A DNA stretch of 26,191 nt from a virus. The position numbers were made by a program, and so were the translations under genes. The stretch lies in the IMG/VR virus record IMGVR_UViG_3300043399_000671, positions 1 to 26,191 of that record; one strand, written 5' to 3'. Under the pieces are notes generated by a model, which was given only the letters and a program-made list of their open reading frames with translations, searched no databases and was not told where the DNA came from. Positions 4,010 to 26,191 of this stretch are shown one piece after another (position 1 is the first letter of the stretch; each line of letters begins with the position of its first letter).

Positions 4010-4037
4010 AGAATAACATAAAATATTATTTTGTCAA
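4010..4037 (-). promoter_or_regulatory. Host-type (sigma70-like) early promoter P1
   Basis: On the minus strand, TTGACA (4037-4032), a 16-nt AT-rich spacer and TATTCT (4015-4010). It drives the 3973-1705 operon. It belongs to a set of five promoters in the window with identical 16-nt spacers. A GIY-YIG endonuclease late promoter begins 4 bp beyond the -35, facing the other way. Confidence 0.75.
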
Positions 4038-4041
4038 GCGG

Positions 4042-4049
4042 AATAAATA
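4042..4049 (+). promoter_or_regulatory. Putative late promoter of GIY-YIG gene 1
   Basis: The box AATAAATA is followed by five bases (AAAAT). The next base, 4055, is the first base of the hairpin ACCGAT...ATCGGT. Using the same +1 rule as elsewhere in the window, the mRNA would begin with the hairpin. Confidence 0.5.
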
Positions 4050-4054
4050 AAAAT

Positions 4055-4084
4055 ACCGATCGCGATCCTGGCAGATCCATCGGT
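4055..4084 (+). promoter_or_regulatory. 5'-terminal hairpin of GIY-YIG gene 1 mRNA
   Basis: The outer stem ACCGAT/ATCGGT (6 bp) is followed by a 5'-side CGC against a single 3'-side C, an inner stem GATC/GATC (4 bp) and the 6-nt loop CTGGCA. The same architecture with a different stem sequence lies in front of the second GIY-YIG gene at 5277-5304. Its position at the predicted +1 suggests mRNA 5'-end protection or regulation. Confidence 0.6.
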
Positions 4085-4117
4085 TCTAATGGTAAGTTTT
4101 TAGAAAGGACCATCAGC

Positions 4118-4795
4118 ATGACTATTTATTTGTATGTAAAAACCCACAATGCTACTGGACTAAAATATCTTGGAAAAACTTCCAAGGATCCATATTCCTA
4201 TCTTGGATCTGGTAAGTATTGGCTTAGACATTTACAGAAATATGGCACGGACATTTCTACTGAAATTTTATTAGAAACTAATGACCCAAATGAATTAAAA
4301 GAATATGGATTATATTACTCAACATTGTTTAATGTAGTTGCTTCAACTGATTGGGCAAATCTAAAACCAGAATCTGGTGACGGAGGAATGGTAACTCCTG
4401 AAATAATACAAAAAATTCTTGAAACCAAAAAAGCAAACGGATATGTGATAACAAATGAAACAAAGACTAAAATTTCTAATAGTCTAAAAGGAAATAAACG
4501 AACCAACGAAAGCATCCAAAAAACTGCCAATAAGCTAAAAGGATGCAAGCGATCAAACGATTTCAAAGCAAATTTATCAAACAAAAGAAAAGGTAAATTA
4601 AATCCTTATTACGGCAAAAAACATTCCGATGAAGTGCGTAGAAAGATTTCCGAGTCACACAAAGGTAAAAAATATGACCAACCCAAATATGCTTGTGAGC
4701 ATTGTGGATTGGTCACTATTCGTTCAAATTTAGTTCGCTGGCATGGCGATAATTGTAAATCTAAAAATCGCCTGGAGCCACCTGGCACACTTTAA
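4118..4795 (+). CDS. GIY-YIG homing endonuclease 1 with NUMOD3 repeats and C-terminal zinc finger
   Basis: This is a free-standing homing endonuclease of 225 residues. The GIY-YIG core is at the N-terminus (IYLYVKTHNATGLKYLGKT, residues 3-21; likely catalytic Glu62). Three or four NUMOD3-like DNA-binding repeats follow (about 115-183: KISNSLKGNKRTNES, NPYYGKKHSDEVRRKISES). A zinc finger closes the protein: Cys193, Cys196, His209 and Cys213 (CxxC-x12-H-x3-C). The same finger closes the HNH endonuclease at 25320. The ATG has AAAGGA 8 nt upstream. The last 35 bp overlap, antisense, the end of the phosphatase gene, so the final residues may come from invaded sequence. The gene sits directly behind promoter P1 on the opposite strand. 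Confidence 0.88.
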   Translation: MTIYLYVKTHNATGLKYLGKTSKDPYSYLGSGKYWLRHLQKYGTDISTEILLETNDPNELKEYGLYYSTLFNVVASTDWANLKPESGDGGMVTPEIIQKILETKKANGYVITNETKTKISNSLKGNKRTNESIQKTANKLKGCKRSNDFKANLSNKRKGKLNPYYGKKHSDEVRRKISESHKGKKYDQPKYACEHCGLVTIRSNLVRWHGDNCKSKNRLEPPGTL

Positions 4796-5201
4796 TGCCT
4801 TCAGCTCTAATGGCATCTACTACTTGCTGCCTATCGTCGAACCAAAGATAGGGGGTTCCAAACTCCTGTCGGATCTGAGCCAGCAGTTCAACCTTAACGA
4901 TGTTGTCTGCACGGAAATCCTTGTGCGCCCTCATGTACAGAGCGTTAAACTCTACACCAAAGTCCTTCATCTGCTTCTCGGTCACTTCACGCGACTCCTC
5001 ACCGCGCCCGGAACACAGGATTACCTTGTTGCCCTGACCAGCAAACGTCTGCGCGAGGAAAACGATTTCCTCATGCGGCGTGTCCTGCGGGATTGCAGCA
5101 TTAAACGCCTTAAAGTTCTTCGGCTTGCTTGCCACGAACGCCCTGCGGTGCTCGATGTTACAAATGGTTCCATCCAGATCAAATACAATGATCTTGTTCA
5201 T
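4761..5201 (-). CDS. Polynucleotide 3'-phosphatase (PseT C-terminal domain-like, HAD fold)
   Basis: This 146-residue HAD phosphatase matches the phosphatase half of T4 polynucleotide kinase (PseT). It has the nucleophile motif FDLDGT (Asp8, Asp10), SGR at 64-66, Lys103 in the helix DNIVKVELL, and the acidic pair WFDDRQQVV (Asp122, Asp123). The ending KVCQVAPGDF is very like the end of T4 Pnkp. The family removes 3'-phosphate or 2',3'-cyclic phosphate from RNA or DNA ends during repair. The kinase half is absent here. It is a single-gene unit behind promoter P2. The cREC gene at 7342 belongs to the same RNA-end theme. Its 3' end is overlapped antisense by the GIY-YIG gene. Confidence 0.85.
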   Translation of the reverse strand: MNKIIVFDLDGTICNIEHRRAFVASKPKNFKAFNAAIPQDTPHEEIVFLAQTFAGQGNKVILCSGRGEESREVTEKQMKDFGVEFNALYMRAHKDFRADNIVKVELLAQIRQEFGTPYLWFDDRQQVVDAIRAEGIKVCQVAPGDF

Positions 5202-5233
5202 TTAAATATTCCCCAGTTGTTAAGTTATAATGT

Positions 5234-5261
5234 ATAATAACACAGTTTGAAACCATGTCAA
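5234..5261 (-). promoter_or_regulatory. Host-type early promoter P2
   Basis: On the minus strand, TTGACA (5261-5256), a 16-nt spacer and TATTAT (5239-5234), with GG directly before the -35. It drives the 3'-phosphatase gene. Confidence 0.82.
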
Positions 5262-5263
5262 CC

Positions 5264-5271
5264 GCTAAATA
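5264..5271 (+). promoter_or_regulatory. Putative late promoter of GIY-YIG gene 2
   Basis: The box GCTAAATA is followed by five bases (ATAAT), then 5277, the first base of the hairpin GTAGTT...AACTAC. The geometry is identical to GIY-YIG gene 1. Confidence 0.5.
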
Positions 5272-5276
5272 ATAAT

Positions 5277-5304
5277 GTAGTTCGCGGGTTGCCGCCCCAA
5301 CTAC
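5277..5304 (+). promoter_or_regulatory. 5'-terminal hairpin of GIY-YIG gene 2 mRNA
   Basis: The outer stem GTAGTT/AACTAC (6 bp) is followed by 5'-side CGC against a single 3'-side C, an inner stem GGG/CCC and the 6-nt loop TTGCCG. An alternative inner pairing GCGG/CCGC with loop GTTG is also possible. Stems differ from the copy at 4055-4084 while the CGC/C internal loop and sizes are kept. Confidence 0.6.
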
Positions 5305-5331
5305 TCTATACGCTTTGAAGGAGCATACAGC

Positions 5332-5934
5332 ATGTCTAAATATCCAGAAGGATATTATATCTACGCATATTTACGCAAGTCTGATCTAACCCCATATTAC
5401 ATTGGTAAGGGCAAAGAAGGCAGGGCTTGGCAACAACATTATCCAACAGTTAAACCTAATGATAAATCTAAAATAATTATTTTAGAGTCAAATTTAACTG
5501 AGGTCGGTGCAATGGCATTAGAACGTAGATTAATTAAATGGTATGGAAGAAAAGATATAGGAACAGGCATATTGTTAAATCAAACAGATGGCGGAGACGG
5601 TGCTACCGGTAGATTTGGCGAACTTAACAATATGTATGGAAAAACACACTCTCAAGAAATTAAAAAAGCCCATTCAAAAAGGATGAAAGGTCGTTTTGTT
5701 GGAGAACAAAATTCAATGTTTGGCGCTAAACGCCCTGAAGTTTCTGCTCGTAATAAATTACCAAAGAGATGGGTTACAAACGGATTAGTTGACAAGTTGG
5801 TATTAGTAGAACAAGCACAGATTTATTTAGAGCAGGGTTATTGGATTGGTCGTTCAAACCAATCCAATAAAGAGGCTGCATCTAAAACATTGAGTAAACT
5901 CCGCAAAGGTAAGGCACCCTGGAATAAGAAGTGA
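5332..5934 (+). CDS. GIY-YIG homing endonuclease 2
   Basis: This 200-residue protein has the GIY-YIG core at residues 8-35 ([20 protein letters not shown], then RAW) and a likely catalytic Glu64 in [20 protein letters not shown]3-type segment follows ([20 protein letters not shown], about 99-118), then a C-terminal part with RWVTNG...EQGYWIGRS seen in other phage endonucleases. It lacks the zinc finger of endonuclease 1. AAGGAG lies 8 nt before the ATG, and its leader is nearly the same as that of gene 1 (AAGGA, CAT, CAGCATG). It lies between the end of one early operon and the -35 of P2, the same kind of site as gene 1. Confidence 0.88.
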
Positions 5935-25175: not shown

Positions 25176-25320
25176 GAACACTTGCTACGCCTAAAACAGC
25201 GAAGAAGGATAGCAATCCTAACCAACCAGCTGCCTGTGCCCACCCCCTGTGAAGGGAATATAAGCATGACCCTAGACAAGCTAGGGCCACTATTGTTTTG
25301 AATAGATCAAGTTCAATCAT
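25171..25320 (-). CDS. Small two-segment membrane protein, 49 aa
   Basis: Two hydrophobic stretches (LFKTIVALACLGSCLYSL at about 6-23 and AAGWLGLLSFFAVLGVASV at about 30-48) flank the short loop HRGWAQ. It starts in a run of overlapping ATGs at the end of the HNH gene and ends 9 nt before the radical SAM ATG. The size and shape would fit a small holin or another membrane peptide, but it is not next to the lysin, and nothing proves either. Confidence 0.6.
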   Translation of the reverse strand: MIELDLFKTIVALACLGSCLYSLHRGWAQAAGWLGLLSFFAVLGVASVH

Positions 25321-25943
25321 CATCCTCGACGACTCTTTGTTCCAACTGTTTTACAATTATTTCCATGCCATCTAGCATACATTTGCTTTATAACTTCTTT
25401 CCCACAAATTTCACATTTTATTTTTGGACGATTTAACGCTTTTTGGATTAACTTTTCTTTATGCTCATCAGTAAACTCTTTGCCACGCATACTGTCACCG
25501 ATGCAATGTATTCTTCCTTCGGACATATGTTGTTTAGCTCTTTCGGAGTACTCAACAAGTCTTATATCTTTATCCTTGGTTAATCCTTTATTCCAAGGAT
25601 CAGGTCTATTTCCTTTTTCCCAAGAAATGCGTTGTGCTTCTTTTAACAACGCTTTTCCTTCTGGAGTTTTCATCCAAGATTTGTCTGCGTTTTTTTGAGC
25701 AAACTTTATTGCTTCTTCTTTGCCTATTTGTCCTGAAAGCATTTGCCAAGCAAGTTTATCTTGCCACTTCCCGTATTGTTCGAATAATATACGATGCGCT
25801 TCGGCATGTTCAGTTACAGTTAGGTACACAATATTAGAAGCATCATTTACTCCACCAGCGTGTAATGGAATAACATGATGTGCATGTAACCCTGGTTCAA
25901 TATCCTTTGGTTTTTTCCTAAAATTTTTGCGATTTGTGTACAA
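25320..25943 (-). CDS. HNH homing endonuclease with NUMOD3-like segment and C-terminal zinc finger
   Basis: This 207-residue protein begins with a TTG codon that stands 8 nt after AAAGGAG. The HNH core is HAHHVIPLHAGGVNDASNIV (His22, His23, Asn37), then TEHAEAH. A NUMOD3-type segment (RGKEFTDEHKEKLIQKALNR) lies at about 153-172. A zinc finger closes the protein: Cys177, Cys180, His193 and Cys197, with ARWHGNNCK. That finger is nearly the same as in the GIY-YIG endonuclease at 4118. The gene is inserted behind the gene ending at 25994. Its RBS lies in a 15-bp hairpin with a late promoter in it. Confidence 0.88.
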   Translation of the reverse strand: MYTNRKNFRKKPKDIEPGLHAHHVIPLHAGGVNDASNIVYLTVTEHAEAHRILFEQYGKWQDKLAWQMLSGQIGKEEAIKFAQKNADKSWMKTPEGKALLKEAQRISWEKGNRPDPWNKGLTKDKDIRLVEYSERAKQHMSEGRIHCIGDSMRGKEFTDEHKEKLIQKALNRPKIKCEICGKEVIKQMYARWHGNNCKTVGTKSRRG

Positions 25944-25949
25944 TAAAAA

Positions 25950-25987
25950 TGCTCCTTTATTGTACTTATTTATACAACAAAGGAGCA
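25950..25987 (-). promoter_or_regulatory. RBS-sequestering hairpin with embedded late promoter (HNH gene)
   Basis: On the minus strand the left arm TGCTCCTTTGTTGTA (25987-25973) pairs with TACAATAAAGGAGCA (25964-25950): 15 bp with one G-U, loop TAAATAAG. The right arm holds the ribosome-binding site AAAGGAG. The exact late box TATAAATA lies at 25974-25967, and its predicted +1 (25961) is inside the right arm, so late mRNA lacks the left arm and leaves the site open. T4 I-TevI uses this principle. Confidence 0.8.
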
Positions 25988-25993
25988 AATTAG

Positions 25994-26191
25994 TTATTTC
26001 TTTTTACCAATATCAGTTAGATCAGATTTGGGTGTGATATATTGGTATGCACCTTTTGAATATGCTGGAGCAATTCTTTTGGCTTTGTTCAAAATTTCTT
26101 TACGAGTTTGAGGAGATTCGTTTGCCAAGTTAGCCATTACACCAGACTGTGTACCAGAACCAACAACGTTGCTGTATTGGACTTTCTTATA
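25994..26191 (-). CDS. Conserved phage protein, C-terminal part (start beyond window)
   Basis: Only the last 65 residues are visible (KKVQYSNVVGSGTQSGVMAN, LANESPQTRKEILNKAKRIA, then YQYITPKSDLTDIGKKK). I do not recognise the family; the small polar composition would suit a virion or morphogenesis protein. The HNH endonuclease gene begins 50 nt after its stop. Confidence 0.6.
   Translation of the reverse strand, partial: YKKVQYSNVVGSGTQSGVMANLANESPQTRKEILNKAKRIAPAYSKGAYQYITPKSDLTDIGKKK

Follow-up and report, generated by a model that had tools for sequence, protein, structure and literature searches.

Several described antisense systems control genes through their leaders. FinP/traJ and RepX/repA each consist of two serial stem-loops with a 3′ U-rich tail, lie opposite the leader of the target gene and cover its ribosome-binding site (PMC8136791). 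Works cited in PMC3753616 credit the bulges and interior loops of the CopA stem with protection against RNase III and with faster pairing, and one title cited there names UUGGCG as the motif of the ColIb-P9 antisense target. At homing-endonuclease genes (HEGs) of T4-like phages, an antisense RNA transcribed opposite such a gene – CfrI – has been described in cyanophage S-PM2 (PMC2984593), and sense-strand hairpins mask the ribosome-binding sites of T4 I-TevI, I-TevII, I-TevIII and segB and of Aeh1 mobE in read-through or early transcripts; these hairpins are lost from the late transcript, the late promoter being located beside the leader (PMC2988022). Late promoters of T4 have no -35 element and consist of a TATA-like box placed roughly one helical turn ahead of +1, a form shared by T4-related phages (PMC2988020).

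Here, we describe a structured element that stands before two HEGs in a 26,191-nt stretch of DNA (the window) from a T4-like virus record in IMG/VR, which encodes a clamp loader and baseplate/tail-fibre proteins. We lean, with moderate rather than high confidence, to the view that the element is the gene of a cis-encoded antisense RNA over the HEG leader and ribosome-binding site, acting in the manner of FinP/traJ or CopA/CopT. Both genes are of GIY-YIG type with NUMOD3-like repeats: endonuclease 1 matches Pfam NUMOD3 (9e-14) and PHROG 314 (homing endonuclease; 1e-25) and leads by tblastn to Seg-like genes, and endonuclease 2 matches PHROG 15526 (1e-22) and PHROG 314 (1e-12).

An initial annotation of the window had reported a hairpin ahead of each gene, and both are present as described (ACCGAT-CGC-GATC-CTGGCA-GATC-C-ATCGGT in copy 1 and GTAGTT-CGC-GGG-TTGCCG-CCC-C-AACTAC in copy 2; Table 1), as is a TAAATA box that stops precisely five bases short of each stem. 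With both strands scanned, these are the sole fits to the hairpin plan in the window; dinucleotide shuffles of the window gave a mean of 0.03 chance fits per window and a maximum of 1. Copy 1 is intact in both of its hairpins (P1 and P2) and both of its late boxes, with P1 formed by an outer stem of 6 bp, a lone G-C pair that has a bulged G on either side, an inner stem of 4 bp and a 6-nt loop; its P2 loop is enlarged and contains the anti-Shine-Dalgarno stretch UCCUUU. The antisense promoter of copy 2 looks degenerate and may be weak, to judge from its box. Between the two HEGs lies a HAD-type polynucleotide kinase 3′-phosphatase-like gene (4761-5201, strand -; PF25109, 2e-29), and leftward sigma-70-like promoters abut the left side of both elements (TTGACA-16-TATTCT at 4010-4037 and TTGACA-16-TATTAT at 5234-5261, strand -, with TG in both), an arrangement that would result had the cassettes inserted immediately ahead of their neighbours' promoters.

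Table 1. Positions in the window of the two element copies and the endonuclease genes behind them.
Feature	Position	Strand	Basis or remark
Copy 1, TAAATA, T4-type late-promoter box of endonuclease 1 mRNA	4044..4049	+	presumed +1 = 4055; spacing 5 nt
Copy 1, the same TAAATA stretch read backwards, part of the predicted antisense RNA's U-rich tail (AUUUUUAUUUA)	4044..4049		
Copy 1, hairpin P1 of predicted antisense RNA (hairpin of the initial annotation)	4055..4084	-	covariance-model match
Copy 1, hairpin P2 of predicted antisense RNA, CUG-AUGGU ... ACCAU-UAG	4086..4116	-	RNAalifold, pair counts, model alignment
Copy 1, second TAAATA late box, within endonuclease codons 2-4	4123..4128	-	spacing, codon test; presumed antisense +1 = 4117 (G of GCUG)
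Homing endonuclease 1, 225 aa, GIY-YIG type with NUMOD3, Seg-like	4118..4795	+	Pfam, PHROG, tblastn
Copy 2, TAAATA late-promoter box of endonuclease 2	5266..5271	+	presumed +1 = 5277
Copy 2, hairpin P1 of predicted antisense RNA	5277..5304	-	covariance-model match
Copy 2, hairpin P2 of predicted antisense RNA, CUG...UAG closing stem, UGCUCCUU loop side	5306..5330	-	model alignment, alignment A1
Copy 2, antisense late box position, reads TATTTA not TAAATA	5337..5342	-	model alignment
Homing endonuclease 2, 200 aa, GIY-YIG type	5332..5934	+	PHROG

Searching IMG/VR with both endonuclease proteins yielded 160 loci, and in a simple scan dozens of these proved to have this hairpin roughly 40 nt upstream of the HEG start codon. 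With two further pattern scans that were independent of protein and contributed minimum counts of copies, the collection comprises at least 247 distinct element copies (effective number 184), aligned by anchors. The association with GIY-YIG genes proposed initially was borne out and proved to be wider: the element is tied to free-standing HEGs, which nearly all of the listed copies directly precede, and these belong to several GIY-YIG groups, two HNH groups and a PD-(D/E)XK/DUF7487-like type. The exceptions with no intact HEG are degraded cases (L202, L419 and L431); the HEG is truncated or absent beside the element in L419 and L431, and in L202 an orphan element (143-230) standing directly before a gp17-like terminase gene, its HEG gone, is the scar of a lost cassette.

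Whole-record scans found the element in 19 of 25 and in 16 of 30 records, with up to 13 copies per phage. Isolated carriers are Rhizobium phage RHph_I1_18, the single real match in a blastn comparison of the element with sequenced phages, and Variovorax phage V45v66, in which a copy is present elsewhere in the genome. The related HEGs of Acidovorax ACP17 and Sinorhizobium phiN3 stand without the element, and a model search found no element in the genomes of T4, KVP40, Aeh1, S-PM2, P-SSM2 and Acj61. Five pattern matches were obtained in a bacterial genome collection, of which three are chance occurrences without paired stems and two are on phage contigs in MAGs; in bacterial assemblies the element thus occurs on phage contigs only. 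Neither the window nor the element matches Rfam 15 at E values up to 5, and a literature search found no description of the element, in agreement with the earlier impression that nothing of this form had been described.

An alignment of 49 diverse copies (A1), analysed with RNAalifold and pair counts, has two hairpins linked by one A: P1, which is the one originally annotated, and P2, which on the antisense strand consists of a C-G pair, a U-A pair, an invariant G·U and five covarying pairs, with an anti-Shine-Dalgarno stretch in its loop. The close likeness of the two ribosome-binding leaders had been remarked upon, correctly, but the leaders are alike because they form this second, covarying hairpin, which had gone unseen. 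What had been taken for an internal loop, with CGC facing a single C, is, when read on the antisense strand, a lone and covarying R-Y pair with a bulged G on either side. It is G-C in most copies and G·U or A-U in variants including L421, L424, L427, L436, L450 and L452; the subgroup in which GUG replaces GCG (antisense) with G or A opposite, comprising L421, L424, L427, L436, L437, L440, L442, L444, L450 and L452, is what reveals a lone base pair between the bulges.

That pairing is kept rather than sequence was an early claim that the alignment upholds: 97.8% of the cells in A1 are paired (72.7% when shuffled), 227 cells are changed on both sides (60 when shuffled), both-side changes occur in 14 of 18 pairs, and the covariation score is 0.695, compared with 0.18 in shuffled and at most 0.12 in slid controls, all of which collapse. 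Mutual information is strongest for the P1 and P2 pairs; the other top pairs are adjacent-column and promoter-box correlations, with no further helix, pseudoknot or tertiary pair among them. Nothing is conserved left of the box in the aligned copies. The outer stem GTAGTT is common to half or more of the copies, partly because one search required it. A hammerhead- or HDV-like ribozyme core was also considered, and by-eye inspection gave no fit.

The non-Watson-Crick pairs indicate which strand folds. Read on the HEG strand, the stems of the 247 copies contain 180 A·C and only 11 G·U oppositions; the corresponding ratio is 88:4 in A1, and in the outer P1 stem it is 14:0 in the first set and 25:0 in a set gathered without a stem requirement. 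The closing stem of P2 has an A·C mismatch on the mRNA strand in all 247 copies, equivalent to the invariant antisense G·U. Because a folded mRNA would tolerate G·U, yet A·C is seen, the fold under selection is, by these pair counts, that of the strand antisense to the HEG, and a sense-strand 5′-terminal hairpin is rejected as the functional fold. The antisense strand also has the lower minimum free energy in 223 of the 247 copies (mean -16.4 versus -12.3 kcal/mol), and covariance model R1 matches copy 1 on strand - (4043-4129; 79.1 bits, E 2e-17) with 9.1 bits on strand +, and copy 2 on strand - (5265-5343; 68.1 bits, E 1e-14). The initial annotation had placed the hairpin at the extreme 5′ end of the HEG mRNA; it does begin at the predicted late start site, but its functional fold is the antisense one according to the A·C/G·U asymmetry.

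Two late-promoter boxes face each other across the element. Of the 247 copies, 173 have TAAATA at a distance of 5 nt from P1 and 182 have an antisense TAAATA ending exactly 5 nt from the G of GCUG; both boxes are well spaced in 204. The antisense box lies inside HEG codons 2-4 and does so in all three reading frames (168/27/27). Among 138 M-x-I-Y genes, the third base of codon 2 is T in 138 of 138, compared with 46% in the rest of the same genes, and the isoleucine codon is ATT in 136 of 138, compared with 41%; this bias, together with the use of three frames, argues that the antisense box is selected as nucleotides and not as protein. As read from the sequence, the two presumed +1 sites face each other and mark the exact limits of the structured element.

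In the antisense mechanism that we propose, transcription from the left TAAATA late promoter would give a HEG mRNA whose first base is that of P1, and the facing late promoter in HEG codons 2-4 would start an antisense RNA at the G of GCUG. This RNA, of about 55-70 nt, would comprise that G, the 8-bp hairpin P2 with its CUG...UAG closing stem and anti-Shine-Dalgarno loop, one A, the hairpin P1 (6 bp, the lone pair with its two bulged Gs, a further 3-5 bp and a loop of 6-7 nt) and a U-rich tail, and it would be perfectly complementary to the whole HEG leader to within a few bases of the AUG. The element stops 0-3 nt short of the ATG and covers the Shine-Dalgarno sequence, the anti-Shine-Dalgarno in the P2 loop being there by construction. 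Loop-loop kissing followed by pairing with the leader would hide the ribosome-binding site, the sense-antisense duplex might invite RNase III, and endonuclease synthesis would stay low and late. We infer that the antisense transcript is made, that it ends at P1 and the U tail, and that it represses translation. Because the leader alone is targeted, the module would work with any nuclease behind it, which would explain its sharing by unrelated HEG families.

The facing boxes, the antisense fold, the U-turn loops, the bulges and the portability among HEG families all fit an antisense RNA. The YUNR U-turn motif, on either strand, occurs in 67 of 107 distinct P1 loops versus 40.3 +/- 4.7 in column-preserving shuffles – a modest enrichment – and the commonest P1 loop is UUGGCG on the HEG mRNA strand. 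Against it, copy 2 has no intact antisense box, a terminator scan does not call P1, so that an end of the RNA there is less certain, the alleles, with GTAGTT so frequent in the outer stem, are less diverse than those of plasmid antisense systems that have specificity classes, and, since both promoters are late, the sense and antisense RNAs would be made simultaneously. Moreover, an antisense role alone would not call for the bulged Gs, the invariant CUG/UAG stem or the single-A linker; such a fold may be read by a protein, as the strict conservation of the bulged Gs and the G·U also suggests.

The element moves with the HEG, as the initial annotation had allowed in listing a mobile cassette among its options: in L353 and L354, which are most closely related to the locus, both HEGs are missing, no copy of the element occurs anywhere in the records, and the flanks are rearranged. 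HEGs occur in either orientation relative to their neighbours, (-,-) in 100 cases and (+,+) in 40, and the antisense RNA would therefore not simply be the neighbour's leader; a role as leader of the left neighbour gene is rejected, with left neighbours in either direction and nothing conserved left of the box. A cassette with a matching right-hand element was likewise rejected, no sequence being shared after the HEG stop codons. In L033, L039, L040, L056, L059, L062 and others, HEGs that differ from one another run out into the 3′ part of one host gene, with the recurring sequence ...GCAAGATTTTTACCTTTGCTTTCTGCCATTATATC... to their right, and this site is a repeatedly used homing neighbourhood. 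In L037 an apparent 3′ half of a tRNA (GGTTCGACTCCCTGCAGAAGCACCA) directly follows the HEG stop, which suggests that this HEG was inserted next to or in a tRNA gene.

Other roles for the element have to be weighed against an antisense RNA acting on the HEG leader. We regard as unlikely a terminator or insulator in which P1 and the U-rich stretch end leftward transcripts crossing the HEG in antisense and so shield the neighbour: A-C/U-UUUU-AUUUA does follow P1 on the antisense strand (U-rich ACUUUUAUUUA), and an antisense orientation relative to the neighbours is the more frequent one among HEGs, but such a device needs neither P2, GCUG nor the antisense box, the element is unchanged in (+,+) contexts, and P1 received no call in a consensus terminator scan. 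A terminator role may nonetheless hold for the 3′ end of the antisense RNA. There is also a small probability that the antisense strand yields a regulatory or protein-binding RNA that does not pair with the HEG leader – a trans-acting sRNA, a sponge or a put-like antiterminator. The kept bulged Gs, the single-A linker and the CUG/G·U stem suggest a fold read by a protein or polymerase, and HK022 put RNA, with two hairpins and one unpaired base between them at the 5′ end of the transcript, recalls the element; the unconserved sequence left of the element and the left neighbours facing either direction argue against a cis role on the neighbour.

An element of single-stranded DNA, in which a protein recognizes the folded antisense DNA strand in mobility, priming or recombination (compare attC and IS200/IS605 ends), seems to us decidedly improbable. 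Single-stranded DNA would tolerate the G·T wobble too, the element travels with mobile genes, and GCTG includes a primase-type trinucleotide; however, the ends of the element coincide with two promoter start sites, its loops are enriched in U-turns, the right end of the cassette has no conserved partner, the encoded proteins are HEGs with no cognate recombinase, and to our knowledge HEG homing requires no ssDNA hairpin site. We give an equally low chance to the folded RNA or ssDNA being, besides a brake, a working partner of the cassette, read by a phage or host protein through the bulged Gs and the invariant G·U and needed for the timing or success of homing; if true, it would constitute a new class of RNA-assisted mobile element. 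Very improbable indeed is a 5′-terminal structure of the HEG mRNA serving stability, protein binding or sense-strand translational control, for although the sense RNA would also begin with P1, the HEG late box being 5 nt ahead in most copies, and a stable hairpin upstream of an exposed ribosome-binding site is known in seg43(25) of Aeromonas phage 25 (PMC2988022), this does not account for the antisense box or for the codon constraint on it and is contradicted by the mismatches of the mRNA strand, the P2 closing stem above all, and by its poor model score and lower stability.

The element adds a widespread undescribed RNA family, numerous within single phages and absent from Rfam, and a portable control module common to three nuclease superfamilies. 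A selfish gene may in this way bring along its own regulator, which would let it insert in either direction with no harm to the phage that carries it. The family offers a defined structure, two start sites and isolated carrier phages, and it illustrates that G·U/A·C asymmetry can expose the functional strand of a conserved hairpin.

With the hairpins of T4 and Aeh1 HEGs, the element shares a late promoter next to the leader and, presumably, control of HEG translation at the RNA level; it differs in folding on the antisense strand, in having the Shine-Dalgarno sequence in the P2 loop rather than in a stem, and in being absent from T4 and Aeh1. The third HEG of the window (HNH type; 25320-25988 within 25320-26005, strand -) has the classic T4 layout, unlike the first two: TATAAATA lies inside TGCTCCTTT...AAAGGAGCA, so placed that read-through transcripts would mask the Shine-Dalgarno sequence and the late transcript would free it, and a second stem, GTACAATAAA/TTTTATTGTAC, lies over the TTG start. 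CfrI, at about 225 nt, links psbA and the HEG and differs in structure, and the model has 0 matches in S-PM2 (AJ630128) at E values up to 1, which places CfrI outside the family.

As in CopA/CopT and, from its mention in PMC3753616, the ColIb-P9 Inc RNA/repZ pair, there are a bulged stem, a U-turn kissing loop and the UUGGCG loop motif, although those systems control plasmid replication with one main bulged hairpin, whereas the element has two hairpins and presumably controls an endonuclease. As in FinP/traJ and RepX/repA, there are two hairpins, a U-rich tail, overlap with the target leader and an anti-Shine-Dalgarno in a loop; this is a likeness of layout, with no claim of sequence homology, and the lack of any Rfam 15 match at E values up to 5 places the element outside the FinP family proper. 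FinP is a plasmid RNA of 79 nt with a 4-nt linker and the FinO chaperone; the element has about 55-70 nt and a 1-nt linker and, unlike FinP, an invariant P2 G·U, bulged P1 Gs, T4-type late promoters on both sides and a place in phage HEG cassettes. Features of the FinP/CopA kind are nonetheless present: a position opposite the target leader with complementarity to the ribosome-binding region, U-turn (YUNR) kissing loops with bulges, and, in silico, an antisense promoter of its own (182 of 247 copies, with codon-level selection, degenerate in window copy 2). We therefore file the element as a new RNA family that would work like the plasmid antisense RNAs while being a member of none of their families.
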